From NCBI GenBank assembly GCA_023663145.1, contig JAMPHZ010000016.1, positions 1 to 64,000 of the forward strand: a stretch of 64,000 bases of DNA, read 5' to 3'. Under the pieces are notes generated by a model. That model saw only the letters and a list, made by a program, of their open reading frames with translations. It did not search any database and had not been told where the DNA came from. The translations under genes and the position numbers were made by a program. Shown one piece after another: positions 21,927 to 54,132 of this stretch (within the stretch, counting starts at the first letter, position 1; each line of letters begins with the position of its first letter). Source of the DNA: Odoribacter sp. GTDB lineage: Bacteria; Bacteroidota; Bacteroidia; Bacteroidales; Muribaculaceae.

Positions 21927-22413
21927 TTACCTCGAAAAAAAGATGGCCGACTACCGCGCCGCCCGCCCCGCTGCCAAAAGCCGGCGCCAACCGGTCACCC
22001 GACTCAGATACCGCCCACTCACTGTGCTCATTGACAGCCTGCCACCTGCTGCTACCGCAGCCATGGCAGAAACATTCGTCACATTAGGATGCACCGTGCT
22101 GTGCACAGCCGCTGCTGAGGCCACTCCCGGCTGTGGCACCCGCATATATCCCCCCGACATGACACCTTCCGGGATCATGGCCGATGCGGCCCGTAAAGGC
22201 ACATCCATCGATGTAGCAATAGCCGCCGGGCGCTCCCCTTTCACTGAACTGGCCCCTCGCCGCATATACCTGTCGGCAGAACCTCTCTCTCCTCCGCCCG
22301 CGCCCGGCGAGACATCCATCATCACATCCTCGCCCGAGAGCCTCACACTCCTCGCGGCCTCGCTTGCAACATGCACCACCGACCCCCAGGAGCTACACAT
22401 TTCCAATTTCTAA
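21916..22413 (+). CDS. Uncharacterised protein coupled to recQ
   Basis: This 165-residue protein overlaps the last codons of recQ, so it is probably translated from the same mRNA. It begins with a charged helix (ADNYLEKKMADYRAARPAAK), then has an alternating hydrophobic strand/helix pattern (LTVLIDSLPPAATAAMAETF, LGCTVLCTAA) that resembles half of a Rossmann-like fold, and ends in proline- and serine-rich sequence. There is no recognisable catalytic motif, and the glycine-rich loop of a true NAD-binding domain is missing. I do not recognise the family. It may be a degenerate oxidoreductase-like protein. Confidence 0.65.
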   Translation: MADNYLEKKMADYRAARPAAKSRRQPVTRLRYRPLTVLIDSLPPAATAAMAETFVTLGCTVLCTAAAEATPGCGTRIYPPDMTPSGIMADAARKGTSIDVAIAAGRSPFTELAPRRIYLSAEPLSPPPAPGETSIITSSPESLTLLAASLATCTTDPQELHISNF

Positions 22414-22550
22414 CTTAGTATCAGCTATTTATATACTTATAGTGGTCCTTTCGCTGAATCTTATCTTTTGCAATTGCTTGATACAATAAAAACCACGCAG
22501 ATTTCCTTAACAATGTGAAAGATAATATAAAATTATTCAGAATAAATTCA

Positions 22551-22599: not shown

Positions 22600-23106
22600 A
22601 TGAATATACTGCGAACAGGGTGCCTGATAGCATTATCCGTACTGTCATCATTTCACGCAAAAAGCCAGGATCCAGGCTATAACACACTGACAATAAACGA
22701 GTATGCCATAGTCGATGGAGAAGAAGACATACGCATACTTGAGTTTGACCTTGCCAAAAAACCGATACTGAACATGCAATCCGGCAATCATTTCGTTGAG
22801 TATCAAGGTTCCACATATTCATTAGACCTTTCCAGAGATATAATGATAATTTTTGAGACCAAAGACTGGGGCGGAATACAATCAGCCGTAGACTGCAGCT
22901 ATAAAATCTCAATCAGCGACAACGACGCTATCGTATATGCAGTCGACCGGCCGGCGAATATATTAGTATCAACCATAGCCGGAGTCGTAATAAAACGCAT
23001 AATGATCAATCCTGGAGAATCAACTTCACTTGATCTACCATCTTTAGCCACCGGCAACTATATAGTGAATGTCAACGGTAAATCTATAAAAATCGCCAAA
23101 CCATGA
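22600..23106 (+). CDS. Small exported protein with sorting-domain-like C-terminus
   Basis: This 168-residue protein has an N-terminal signal peptide (residues 1-23, ending HAKSQ). Its C-terminal third (from about residue 118) resembles the beta-strand layout of type IX secretion C-terminal sorting domains: a strand ILVSTIAGVVIKR, then LPSLATGNYIVNVNGKSIKIAKP split over the last residues, the G-x-Y-I-V-x-V-N-G-K pattern being typical. Alternatively it is a DUF3244-like adhesin-type domain. Its stop overlaps the start of the large M64-type protein (ATGA), so the two exported proteins are coupled. The function is unknown. Confidence 0.65.
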   Translation: MNILRTGCLIALSVLSSFHAKSQDPGYNTLTINEYAIVDGEEDIRILEFDLAKKPILNMQSGNHFVEYQGSTYSLDLSRDIMIIFETKDWGGIQSAVDCSYKISISDNDAIVYAVDRPANILVSTIAGVVIKRIMINPGESTSLDLPSLATGNYIVNVNGKSIKIAKP

Positions 23107-26100
23107 AAAAGCTATTGATATACATATTTATCATATTAAGTTTTATGGCTCCCGTTCACATAACGGCACAACCAGAAGGTCTATACCTCTATAATGTGAA
23201 CAGAACCATTAATTTTAATGATATCGGCAAAATAACTTTCGAGTATGTAGACGGTCGCTATATAATGAATATAGGACAGGTGAGCATGCCTATAGATGAC
23301 GTTCATGCAATGTTATATATCAAGCCCGACTTCGAGCTTGACCTCCGCGACAACAGCCTGCATGTCGATGAAGAAAACCGCCAGCTAACCGTGGGCCTTA
23401 ATGATGTGAACTTCTTACCTATAGAATTACTGTCAGATACGCCGGATTGGCTTGACATTGACATTTGGCCATACGGCGTGGAACTTCACATAGCCGCTAA
23501 TTCAGGCACCGTGGCACGCGAGGCTGATATAACAATCGGATATAGTGGCTATACCAAGAAAGAGACCATGCACATAGTCCAGGAGCCGTTCGTGTTCTTC
23601 TCCGGTGAAATGCAACTGCCCGACTACCATATCCTTGAATACTGGGATTCAGACGATCAATCAACCATGTTCCTTAGTGACGGCAAATCATTCACATTCA
23701 AGTTTCATCCGGGCGTCAAAGGTACCCTTAAGGCAGTGTCACTCGCCAATGGTGATCTATACACTTCCGATATCAACGAAACAGGCGTCACTGCTGATTT
23801 TAACACAGATAAGGGAACTGTCGACCTGCATTTCCCAGAAAATAATTCCGACAACCGCTGTACCTACGATGTAGTCCTTAGCTTTGGTAACTGCGAATAT
23901 GGAATCAGATTCACACAGATGGCCAAAGGAGAAGCACTCCCCACCCCGTCTATAGAGATTGATACACCCGACCTCTATTTCGACAAAGTCGAGAGAACAC
24001 ACTCGGTATTTTACCGCGCCTCTTCCGAAAAGGTTAAGTTCGGAATATTGTCGGAACTTCCGTCATGGATTCAGGTAAAGGCAATCGACAATCTGCATGT
24101 AGAACTTGCGCTCAAGGAAAATACAGGTGAAACACGGCGAGAAGCCGACATCATGATTGGTGACGACCAATTTGGAATAAGCGAGACCATGCACATAGTC
24201 CAGGAGCCGTTCGTGTTCTTCTCCGGTGAAATGCAACTGCCCGACTACCATATCCTTGAATGCTGGGATTCAGACGATCAATCAACCATGTTCCTTAGTG
24301 ACGGCAAATCATTCACATTCAAGTTTCATCCGGGCGTCAAAGGTACCCTTAAGGCAGTGTCACTCGCCAATGGTGATCTATACACTTCCGATATCAACGA
24401 AACAGGCGTCACTGCTGATTTTAACACAGATAAGGGAACTGTCGACCTGCATTTCCCAGAAAATAATTCCGACAACCGCTGTACCTACGATGTAGTCCTT
24501 AGCTTTGGTAACTGCGAATATGGAATCAGATTCACACAGATGGCCAAAGGAGAAGCACTCCCCACCCCGTCTATAGAGATTGATACACCCGACCTCTATT
24601 TCGACAAAGTCGAGAGAACACACTCGGTATTTTACCGCGCCTCTTCCGAAAAGGTTAAGTTCGGAATATTGTCGGAACTTCCGTCATGGATTCAGGTAAA
24701 GGCAATCGACAATCTGCATGTAGAACTTGCGCTCAAGGAAAATACAGGTGAAACACGGCGAGAAGCCGACATCATGATTGGTGACGACCAATTTGAAATA
24801 AGCGAGACCCTGCACATTGTCCAGGAGCCGTTCGTGTTCTTCTCCGGTGAAATGCAACCTATAGGCTATAACATTCTGGAACGTTCTGAACCTTCAGAAC
24901 AAGATTTGTGGATGCAGCCGTCAGGAGACACTTTCACATTCAACTGTCACAAAGGAATAGAAGGTAAGCTGACCTATGCATATCATGTACAGGGCGATAA
25001 TTTCACAGACGGCACCGAAAACATTGTCTTCAATGTGAATTTCCATCCCGACCAAGGCTCATTCGATGTAATATTCCCCGAAAATCATGGGCCTGAACGT
25101 CTGATAGGCATGGAAATTCATTTCGGTTCATGTAAATATGAACTTCGTTTCAAACAGGCTGCGGCAGGCTATCCGTCATATGCCGAACAGCGACAAGCCC
25201 TGATAGACCTATATAACGCGACAAACGGCACGGCATGGGCTGAAAACGAAAACTGGTTAAGCGACAAACACCTCAGTCAATGGGCGAGAATCAGAGGAAA
25301 CGGCAGATATGTCACCCACATTGACCTTGTAAGCAACGAAATAATAGGTGAGATACCGTGTAAAGCTCTCGAAATTCTGATACACGCTCCCGTTCATTTT
25401 AATATCGGCGGGAATGGCCTGTATGGCGAACTATCTGACGAACTGCAAGCTCTTGACGCATGGCAGACAGCCGGCTTCAACGTACTGCCACAGTGCCCAT
25501 GGCTCTCAGGACAACGCCGTTTAACCAACTATAAACACAATCTGCGCATACCTGATCTTGAAATTGAATACCTGTTGGGAGGAGAGATCAGTTCGCTATA
25601 CAACCTATTGTCAAAGCATGACTTGAACTGGTGGGGAATAAGTGCTCCCGGTGAGTATCAGGTTAATCAACAACTTTCATATCCAGGCAAATATCACCAT
25701 ATTGCCGGTGTCCTGTCCGTATTCGACTCCCGTGAGACACTTGAAGAGAATGCACGGAACAATGAATTCAAAGACATCACCTATATCTTTAACTGCAATG
25801 CTATTAGAGCATATATTCCTCTCGGCAATCTCGGGACGCAAGCCCTGATTGACAAAGATGGATATCTGATTGACGTGTTCTATAAAAACTGGTCAGTACC
25901 TGAAGCATTCGAGCATGCCGCAATTGACAATATACTGTCGGAATATTTCGGAGAGCCTGCCGAACATGAGTGGTTCTCATACACAAACACCGGCAATCCG
26001 GTTGACAAATCTACCGACGGACATTACCATTGCCTGCAAAAGGCAACAGTAGGCAAAGGCATTGATATAGTTCTGATGGGCGACGGTTTTAGCTCAGAGT

Positions 26101-26864
26101 TTGACTGGGTTGAAGGTGATTACGGGACCACGATGCGCGAAGCTATGGAAAATATATTCGCAGAAGAACCGTTCAAAACGTTCCGCGACCGCTTCAACGT
26201 ATACATGGTACACGCCGTCTCCGAAGGACAGGCGGGATCTGGCAACGCGGCAATCAATGAAGACGACAACATATGTCGGAAATATGCATCAGTAATACCT
26301 GGAATTGATTTAAGCAAAGCAACGATAATTGATATAGCCAACCGCAAATTCTGGAATCCATCAGGATACACTAATATAAATATCTCCGACGGCTCAGTGA
26401 TCCACATGACCAACGGAAGTGCCTCCTCACGCGAACTCATACATGAAATGGGACACGGATTTGGACTGATGCTCGACGAATACATTGTGGGAGCACATGG
26501 CGGCGAGACAGTAAACGATGAGAACCGCGAGACATTCAACCAATGGATGGAAAGCCAGCATGCAGCAGGCATCGGGCTAAACATTGATAATACAGATAAC
26601 CCGGCAGAAATACTGTGGGCCCACATCCTGTCAGATCCCCGCTACACAGGACAAGTGGGAATATACAGAGGAGCTTACAAATACCCGCTTGACCTGTGGA
26701 GATCCGAAGAAAACGGAATGATGAACAGCAATTACGATAACAATACATTCAATGTAGTTCACCGAGAAATCATTTTCAAACGGATAATGAAACTTTCCGA
26801 GGGTGAATCATGGATATATAACTACGAGGAATTTGTAAAATACGACTCTATAAACCGGCAATAG
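23103..26864 (+). CDS. Large exported M64-type metallopeptidase with BACON-like repeats
   Basis: This 1253-residue protein begins with a signal peptide (residues 1-23). BACON-like beta domains follow, with the recurring ending MHIVQEP near residues 157-163, 364-370 and again near 571-577. A segment near residues 695-760 resembles an LRR N-terminal cap (DLYNATNGTAWAENENWLSD). The C-terminal catalytic domain has GDGFSSEFDW (about residue 993) and the zinc motif HEMGH at about residues 1114-1118, followed by LDEY. That layout matches peptidase family M64 (IgA-peptidase-like proteins of gut Bacteroidetes). Proteolytic activity and substrate are inferred. An almost identical 207-residue unit is repeated in tandem within it. 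Base composition is more AT-rich than the flanks. Confidence 0.82.
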   Translation: MKKLLIYIFIILSFMAPVHITAQPEGLYLYNVNRTINFNDIGKITFEYVDGRYIMNIGQVSMPIDDVHAMLYIKPDFELDLRDNSLHVDEENRQLTVGLNDVNFLPIELLSDTPDWLDIDIWPYGVELHIAANSGTVAREADITIGYSGYTKKETMHIVQEPFVFFSGEMQLPDYHILEYWDSDDQSTMFLSDGKSFTFKFHPGVKGTLKAVSLANGDLYTSDINETGVTADFNTDKGTVDLHFPENNSDNRCTYDVVLSFGNCEYGIRFTQMAKGEALPTPSIEIDTPDLYFDKVERTHSVFYRASSEKVKFGILSELPSWIQVKAIDNLHVELALKENTGETRREADIMIGDDQFGISETMHIVQEPFVFFSGEMQLPDYHILECWDSDDQSTMFLSDGKSFTFKFHPGVKGTLKAVSLANGDLYTSDINETGVTADFNTDKGTVDLHFPENNSDNRCTYDVVLSFGNCEYGIRFTQMAKGEALPTPSIEIDTPDLYFDKVERTHSVFYRASSEKVKFGILSELPSWIQVKAIDNLHVELALKENTGETRREADIMIGDDQFEISETLHIVQEPFVFFSGEMQPIGYNILERSEPSEQDLWMQPSGDTFTFNCHKGIEGKLTYAYHVQGDNFTDGTENIVFNVNFHPDQGSFDVIFPENHGPERLIGMEIHFGSCKYELRFKQAAAGYPSYAEQRQALIDLYNATNGTAWAENENWLSDKHLSQWARIRGNGRYVTHIDLVSNEIIGEIPCKALEILIHAPVHFNIGGNGLYGELSDELQALDAWQTAGFNVLPQCPWLSGQRRLTNYKHNLRIPDLEIEYLLGGEISSLYNLLSKHDLNWWGISAPGEYQVNQQLSYPGKYHHIAGVLSVFDSRETLEENARNNEFKDITYIFNCNAIRAYIPLGNLGTQALIDKDGYLIDVFYKNWSVPEAFEHAAIDNILSEYFGEPAEHEWFSYTNTGNPVDKSTDGHYHCLQKATVGKGIDIVLMGDGFSSEFDWVEGDYGTTMREAMENIFAEEPFKTFRDRFNVYMVHAVSEGQAGSGNAAINEDDNICRKYASVIPGIDLSKATIIDIANRKFWNPSGYTNINISDGSVIHMTNGSASSRELIHEMGHGFGLMLDEYIVGAHGGETVNDENRETFNQWMESQHAAGIGLNIDNTDNPAEILWAHILSDPRYTGQVGIYRGAYKYPLDLWRSEENGMMNSNYDNNTFNVVHREIIFKRIMKLSEGESWIYNYEEFVKYDSINRQ
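23562..24857 (+). repeat. 621-bp in-frame tandem duplication inside the M64-type gene
   Basis: Unit one covers 23562-24182 and unit two 24183-24803. A truncated third copy of about 54 bases begins at 24804. Each unit is 621 bases (207 codons) and encodes one BACON-like module plus one following beta domain. The two protein copies differ only by a Tyr-to-Cys change near the start (ILEYWDS versus ILECWDS) and by two residues at the end (FGISETM versus FEISETL). The near identity points to a very recent duplication or ongoing gene conversion. Confidence 0.95.
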
Positions 26865-26932: not shown

Positions 26933-27036
26933 ACTTATTCAACGTAGAAAAGTTCGCCACCGGCACACACATTTCCAATTTTTAATTTTTAACTTACTAT
27001 TTAAACCGCACACACCGCTATATCGGGAATTTTCGC

Positions 27037-53958: not shown

Positions 53959-54033
53959 TGGGCGCTGAGGGATTCGAACCCCCGACCCTCTGCTTGTAAG
54001 GCAGATGCTCTGAACCAGCTGAGCTAAGCGCCC
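53959..54033 (-). tRNA. tRNA-Val (TAC anticodon), copy 1
   Basis: Read on the minus strand the acceptor is GGGCGCT/AGCGCCC, the D arm GCTC...GAGC, the anticodon stem TCTGC/GCAGA with loop CTTACAA (anticodon TAC), and the T arm GGGGG/CCCTC with TTCGAAT. The discriminator is A, and CCA is not encoded. It is downstream of an identical copy in the same transcript direction. Confidence 0.95.
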
Positions 54034-54057
54034 TGCGACGAGATTGGTAAAAAAGAG

Positions 54058-54132
54058 TGGGCGCTGAGGGATTCGAACCCCCGACCCTCTGCTTGTAAGG
54101 CAGATGCTCTGAACCAGCTGAGCTAAGCGCCC
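54058..54132 (-). tRNA. tRNA-Val (TAC anticodon), copy 2
   Basis: This is identical in sequence to the copy at 53959-54033 and separated from it by 24 bases. Tandem identical copies suggest recent duplication or gene conversion and co-transcription from a promoter to the right. Confidence 0.95.

Follow-up and report, generated by a model that had tools for sequence, protein, structure and literature searches.

The arm of the M64 peptidase gene in the window (the whole stretch of DNA analysed, 64,000 nucleotides long) contains two nearly identical 621-bp units arranged in tandem. These units are likely to represent a very recent in-frame duplication of an X and a BACON domain in the N-terminal Ig-like arm of an exported M64 metallopeptidase, and the newest event in a longer history of module turnover. 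The duplication is probably genuine as well as young, and the repeat could let the arm lengthen or shorten.

Units A and B lie head-to-tail and in frame with a spacing of 621, and 619 of their 621 bases are identical, with uninterrupted matches of 79 and 533 bp, as the preliminary description had recognised in reporting a near-perfect 621-bp tandem duplication at positions 23562-24857. It had counted a single residue difference between the units, whereas two were found: an A/G difference at offset 79 (TAC/TGC, unit codon 27) gives Tyr180 versus Cys387, and a G/A difference at offset 613 (GGA/GAA, unit codon 205) gives Gly358 versus Glu565. Both base differences are nonsynonymous, leaving 205 of 207 residues identical, and no synonymous difference was present over about 134 synonymous sites; therefore, by the rule of three, the synonymous divergence is below about 2%. 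The earlier proposal of a recent duplication agrees with this absence of silent changes. The 621-bp repeat is far beyond chance, since it is the longest exact repeat of the window, followed by one of only 77 bp (a tRNA gene pair), and no tandem stretch of more than 50% identity was found in the other long ORFs of the window. A search of the genome for a second site of the repeat unit, outside the gene itself, found none, and this confinement to the M64 gene rules out import of the duplication from another site in the genome.

Unit B is followed by the start of a third unit, which had been taken for a copy truncated after about 54 bases. The match extends over 55 bp, with 53 identical bases (the differences being one M>L replacement and one silent change), and after position 24858 the frame runs on in register with 48% nucleotide identity over the next 245 bp; at the protein level, X3 is 38% identical to the X domain of the units over 115 aa. 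The continuation of a diverged homologous domain in register rules out a truncated copy. Judging by this alignment, the third unit is a full, older paralogous domain, the first 55 bases of which are unusually similar to those of the units.

The domains of the gene are listed in Table 1; in the arm they follow the order BACON1-X1-BACON2-X2-BACON3-X3. The whole protein scored 38.2 bits against the Pfam BACON family (PF13004; cut-off 25), with two stretches passing, while single BACON domains reached 20 and 17.5 bits in the genome scan, under the cut-off. The X domain has no Pfam family, and its ending resembles that of BACON. Modelled with AlphaFold, BACON2-X2 consists of beta structure throughout; the model has a pLDDT of 73 and a weak domain junction, that is, it is of moderate confidence and with uncertain inter-domain geometry, and its best PDB matches are mostly tandem Ig-like pairs, such as those of titin. 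The duplicated 207-aa segment thus comprises one X and one BACON, i.e., two Ig-like domains. The BACON-like modules named in the preliminary description were thus correctly identified, but not as one domain per unit, since each unit combines a BACON with a beta-sandwich X. The LRR-like and thioredoxin-like assignment is taken from relatives with Pfam LRR and thioredoxin/AhpC-TSA matches, the window protein itself having no Pfam match in that region.

Table 1. Position of the M64 gene, its domains and repeat units, and neighbouring features in the window.
Feature	Position	Strand	Remarks
37-bp imperfect direct repeat, left copy	22395..22431	+	76%; overlaps the preceding ORF at its 3' end
Gene of 168-aa exported protein	22600..23106	+	First gene of the operon; 4-bp (ATGA) overlap with the M64 gene
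M64 gene, 1253 aa	23103..26864	+	Signal peptide; arm of six Ig-like domains; LRR-like region and probable thioredoxin-like region; C-terminal M64 peptidase
Signal peptide MKKLLIYIFIILSFMAPVHITA, residues ~1-22	23103..23168	+	Read from the sequence; predicted cleavage site; no lipobox Cys
BACON1, residues ~80-161	23340..23585	+	Pfam BACON match, strongest over residues 112-161
Repeat unit A, 207 codons, X1 + BACON2	23562..24182	+	Direct repeat comparison
Repeat unit B, 207 codons, X2 + BACON3	24183..24803	+	619/621 identical to A
Third-unit start, 55 bp near-identical	24804..24858	+	Leads into diverged X3, to ~25160
LRR-like and probable thioredoxin-like region, residues ~687-945	25161..25937	+	Homology to locus L015 and relatives
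M64 peptidase domain	26004..26855	+	Pfam score, model, best PDB matches
Zinc motif HEMGHGFGLMLDEY, residues 1114-1127	26442-26483	+	Sequence
37-bp imperfect direct repeat, right copy	26967..27003	+	Pairs with the left copy and brackets the M64 operon

The C-terminal domain matched PF09471 with 57.4 bits (cut-off 26) over residues 968-1251 and with 51.2 bits for the whole protein. Its model has a pLDDT of 89, and the top 17 PDB matches all belong to BF3526, BACOVA_00663 or the IgA peptidase of T. ramosa, the best being 9qdi, 4df9, 3p1v and 9i4z (Foldseek E-values from 1e-13 to 1e-10). The M64 zinc motif is HEXXHXXXGXXD (PMC12402451); in the corresponding segment, HEMGHGFGLMLD, both His residues, the Glu and the Asp are present, and Leu replaces Gly. 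On the strength of sequence and model, the protein is a predicted M64 peptidase, and the signal peptide, PF09471 match and structural matches bear out the earlier assignment to secreted M64-type peptidases. It shares the M64 fold and the HEXXH plus Asp zinc motif with the structurally solved BF3526 (4DF9, 9QDI), BACOVA_00663 (3P1V) and T. ramosa ThomasA/IgAse (9I4Z, 9QDH), from which it differs in the long N-terminal Ig-like arm and the replacement of the motif Gly by Leu, the identity being 17-20%.

Relatives of the repeat were sought at several levels. Among 397 sampled genomes of the family, Muribaculaceae, the repeat unit was found only in its own genome and was absent from the other 396; no ortholog of the arm was found in the 48 other species of the genus (49 genus genomes including its own), and a scan of the named genomes with the whole protein gave no match. 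Contig scans, with one genome per species, found no second copy of the M64 gene within its species. A single close ortholog was detected, in genome G250, a member of another Muribaculaceae genus, where the M64 domain is 63% identical. It lies in the corresponding two-gene operon, in which the genes again overlap by 4 bp, and carries one BACON-X pair followed by the LRR-like region. This ortholog is divided between two scaffolds, being interrupted by 100-N gaps in the middle of contigs C11 and C22 (loci L034 and L035), which suggests mis-scaffolding in the G250 MAG. With its two parts assumed to be one gene, the single BACON-X pair indicates that the window arm has grown by two pairs, the last of them very recently. 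X3, with 39 of 111 residues identical to the X domain of G250, is closer to it than X1 (26 of 112), which fits an ancestor with BACON1-X3 that gained X1-BACON2, the latter being doubled only recently. The arm would thus have started from a G250-like ancestor with one pair, acquired a second pair by an older duplication, and then had its X1-BACON2 unit copied once more. As the founding event, simple crossing-over within the 55-bp homology, or within its 40-bp core, is at odds with the junction bases, unless later mutations or conversion are assumed.

Changes in module number are also seen in the wider M64 family, surveyed as 79 named M64 loci with the arm DNA identity taken in the best 120-bp segment. 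The arms of these distant relatives carry one to seven Ig-like domains, and near-identical Ig-like arrays occur at L103, L111 and L115 (93-96% DNA identity), L105 and L112 (about 90%), and L080 (87%); L111 has seven BACON domains, with DNA identity between neighbours of up to 95%. Two Big_2 domains at L070 correspond to one at L076, with a catalytic identity of 92.7%, and one Ig-like module at L104 to three at L115, with a catalytic identity of 87.9%. Since the type (BACON or Big_2) and number of modules differ while the catalytic end is kept, the arm length has been remodelled repeatedly, on evidence that comes from between species rather than strains. M64 genes are not alone in having near-identical tandem modules: these were detected at 6 of 79 M64 loci (at least 86%) versus 8 of 137 control ORFs (at least 85%), the latter including reverse-strand shadows and another M64 gene, with about three real non-M64 cases. 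The weak enrichment over neighbouring ORFs therefore leads us to make no M64-specific claim. At locus L044 (Candidatus Bacteroides intestinavium), a plus-strand ORF of 1031 aa that shares its locus with an M64 gene encodes a BACON-like protein; its 522-bp tandem repeat reaches 99.2% identity over 120 bp.

The capacity of the repeat for change in unit number, suggested in the preliminary description, stands in principle only. RecA-dependent recombination is known to lengthen and shorten long perfect tandem repeats (PMC7360770), and a near-perfect repeat of this length could gain or lose units along this "accordion" route, through unequal recombination that depends on RecA. As each unit is 621 bp (3 x 207), every gain would add two Ig-like domains without frame damage. 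The gene accordions csa1 and sdrCDE of Staphylococcus aureus (PMC7360770) are similarly open to RecA-dependent expansion and contraction, but they are gene arrays seen to vary, whereas the unit of the window is intragenic.

The duplication could also be neutral and transient, an ordinary recombination accident that would probably disappear again and has no functional consequence; we regard this explanation as quite possible, if somewhat doubtful. Its young age, as seen from the lack of synonymous divergence, and the presence of the unit in only one of the species sampled are in line with such an accident, and tandem duplications segregate at a high rate in bacteria (PMC7360770). However, related M64 genes have repeatedly changed their module number in the corresponding region, which suggests that varied arm lengths are tolerated and kept.

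The role of the arm depends on where the protein is held. No lipobox Cys was found in a scan of the signal peptide, which speaks against a surface lipoprotein, and Pfam revealed neither a Por_Secre_tail nor another sorting or anchor domain on the window M64 protein; a lipobox was found by scanning in many M64 relatives. The proposed surface stalk facing mucin or glycans is thus left unsupported. BACON domains of Bacteroidota enzymes have been suggested to act as spacers (PMC11216935), an example being BoGH5A (PDB 3ZMR; PMC11216935), where N-terminal BACON is likewise joined to a catalytic domain; BoGH5A, however, is a predicted lipoprotein glycosidase, whereas the window protein is a peptidase without a lipobox and with three BACONs alternating with X. 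As a spacer, the arm would keep the LRR-like, thioredoxin-like and peptidase end away from the N-terminal contact, a reading that requires the N-terminus to be held somewhere, the catalytic end being C-terminal.

In a stronger version of this idea, the number of units would vary among cells or strains, set the reach of the peptidase and be under selection, as in Periscope Proteins. Screening for these proteins used repeats of more than 50 residues and at least 80% identity, among which Ig-like folds were the commonest (PMC8201768). The length and identity of the window repeat (207 residues, 205 identical, two copies) agree with this screening, and near-identical arrays recur among M64 and BACON relatives. 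Known examples, such as SasG, Rib, Sgo_0707 and CdrA (PMC8201768), resemble the window protein in being exported and in having long tandem repeats of whole folded domains, Ig-like or other, with a repeat identity of at least 80% and a DNA identity expected to permit gain and loss of units. They differ in their proven strain variation and surface location; they also have a ligand-binding head at the N-terminus and, in many cases, a large number of units. The window arm has just two units, no membrane or wall anchor was found on the protein, and its recognised domain, M64, lies C-terminal to the arm, so that the arm could act as a spacer only with the N-terminus held. Because no anchor was found and the recognised functional domain lies at the other end, we do not file it as a Periscope Protein, and although by analogy the arm might work in a Periscope-like way, we consider selected length variation unlikely, with a minor but real chance of being correct.

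Less likely still is the broader proposal that M64 arms of gut Bacteroidales change their number of Ig-like domains so fast that one population carries the same protease on arms of differing length. Recombination between near-identical units would generate this variation, in a periscope-like arrangement with an enzyme instead of an adhesin at the far end. Muribaculaceae are abundant gut bacteria. If unit number does vary, their enzyme-bearing arms would join the variable-length proteins, mainly known as adhesins, and the locus would be a simple one to test by PCR; repeats of SasG yield PCR ladders (PMC6868369). If it does not, the duplication is young but ordinary, and its family one with often rebuilt spacer arms.

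It is very improbable that only one unit is real and that the assembler looped through it twice or merged two strain haplotypes, since the A/B junction reads GGA, ATG, ATA and then TGC, a combination absent from a loop through the 40-bp core and from a single-unit gene. Drafts without a detectable 16S rRNA gene are frequent among short-read metagenome assemblies. The genome is such a draft, in 41 contigs with no 16S rRNA gene detected, and the 533-bp exact run exceeds short-read k-mers, k-mers of at least 534 being needed to resolve the repeat. Repeats are often mis-assembled (PMC6868369); one well-known error, collapse to too few copies (PMC6868369), would imply more units, not fewer. The starts of the first and third units share a 40-bp exact core, and a false loop through it would be expected to leave CTG and ATT at the A/B junction; ATG, ATA and the unique GGA are seen instead, so that such a loop, lacking its third-copy bases, is unlikely. 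A and B can also be told apart by bases linked to the flank of each, and the most economical reading of these bases is that at least two units are real, two being taken as a minimum because the genome is a draft without a detectable 16S rRNA gene.

The order and length of the 168-aa gene and its overlap with the M64 gene are all conserved in G250. The C-terminus of its product weakly resembles a T9SS sorting tail, with a Por_Secre_tail match below the cut-off. The operon is bracketed by the imperfect direct repeat, whose 15-bp core, ACACATTTCCAATTT, occurs just twice in the genome (2.25 Mb), both times at the operon. The GC content of the M64 gene is 45%, versus 54-58% for recQ and dnaX. No M64 gene was found directly upstream of dnaX in genus relatives, and no integrase inside the bracketed segment. 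The bracketed M64 operon looks like an inserted cassette.

Concerning the zinc motif, one residue more than usual, giving HExxGH, is present in 74 of 80 M64 homologs (the window protein and the 79 loci, L042-L120), and only five, including the window protein (HEMGH), have the canonical HEXXH spacing. All 20 homologs scanned with Pfam were assigned to M64. According to a recent survey, all M64 clusters but one retain HEXXHXXXGXXD, with slight variations (PMC12402451). The literature was searched for HEXXGH together with M64, and only an unrelated paper was returned; the HExxGH homologs may be an undescribed M64 subgroup. Elsewhere in the window, at positions 53959-54132 on the minus strand, two tRNA genes lie 99 bp apart from start to start and have an exact 77-bp repeat in common.
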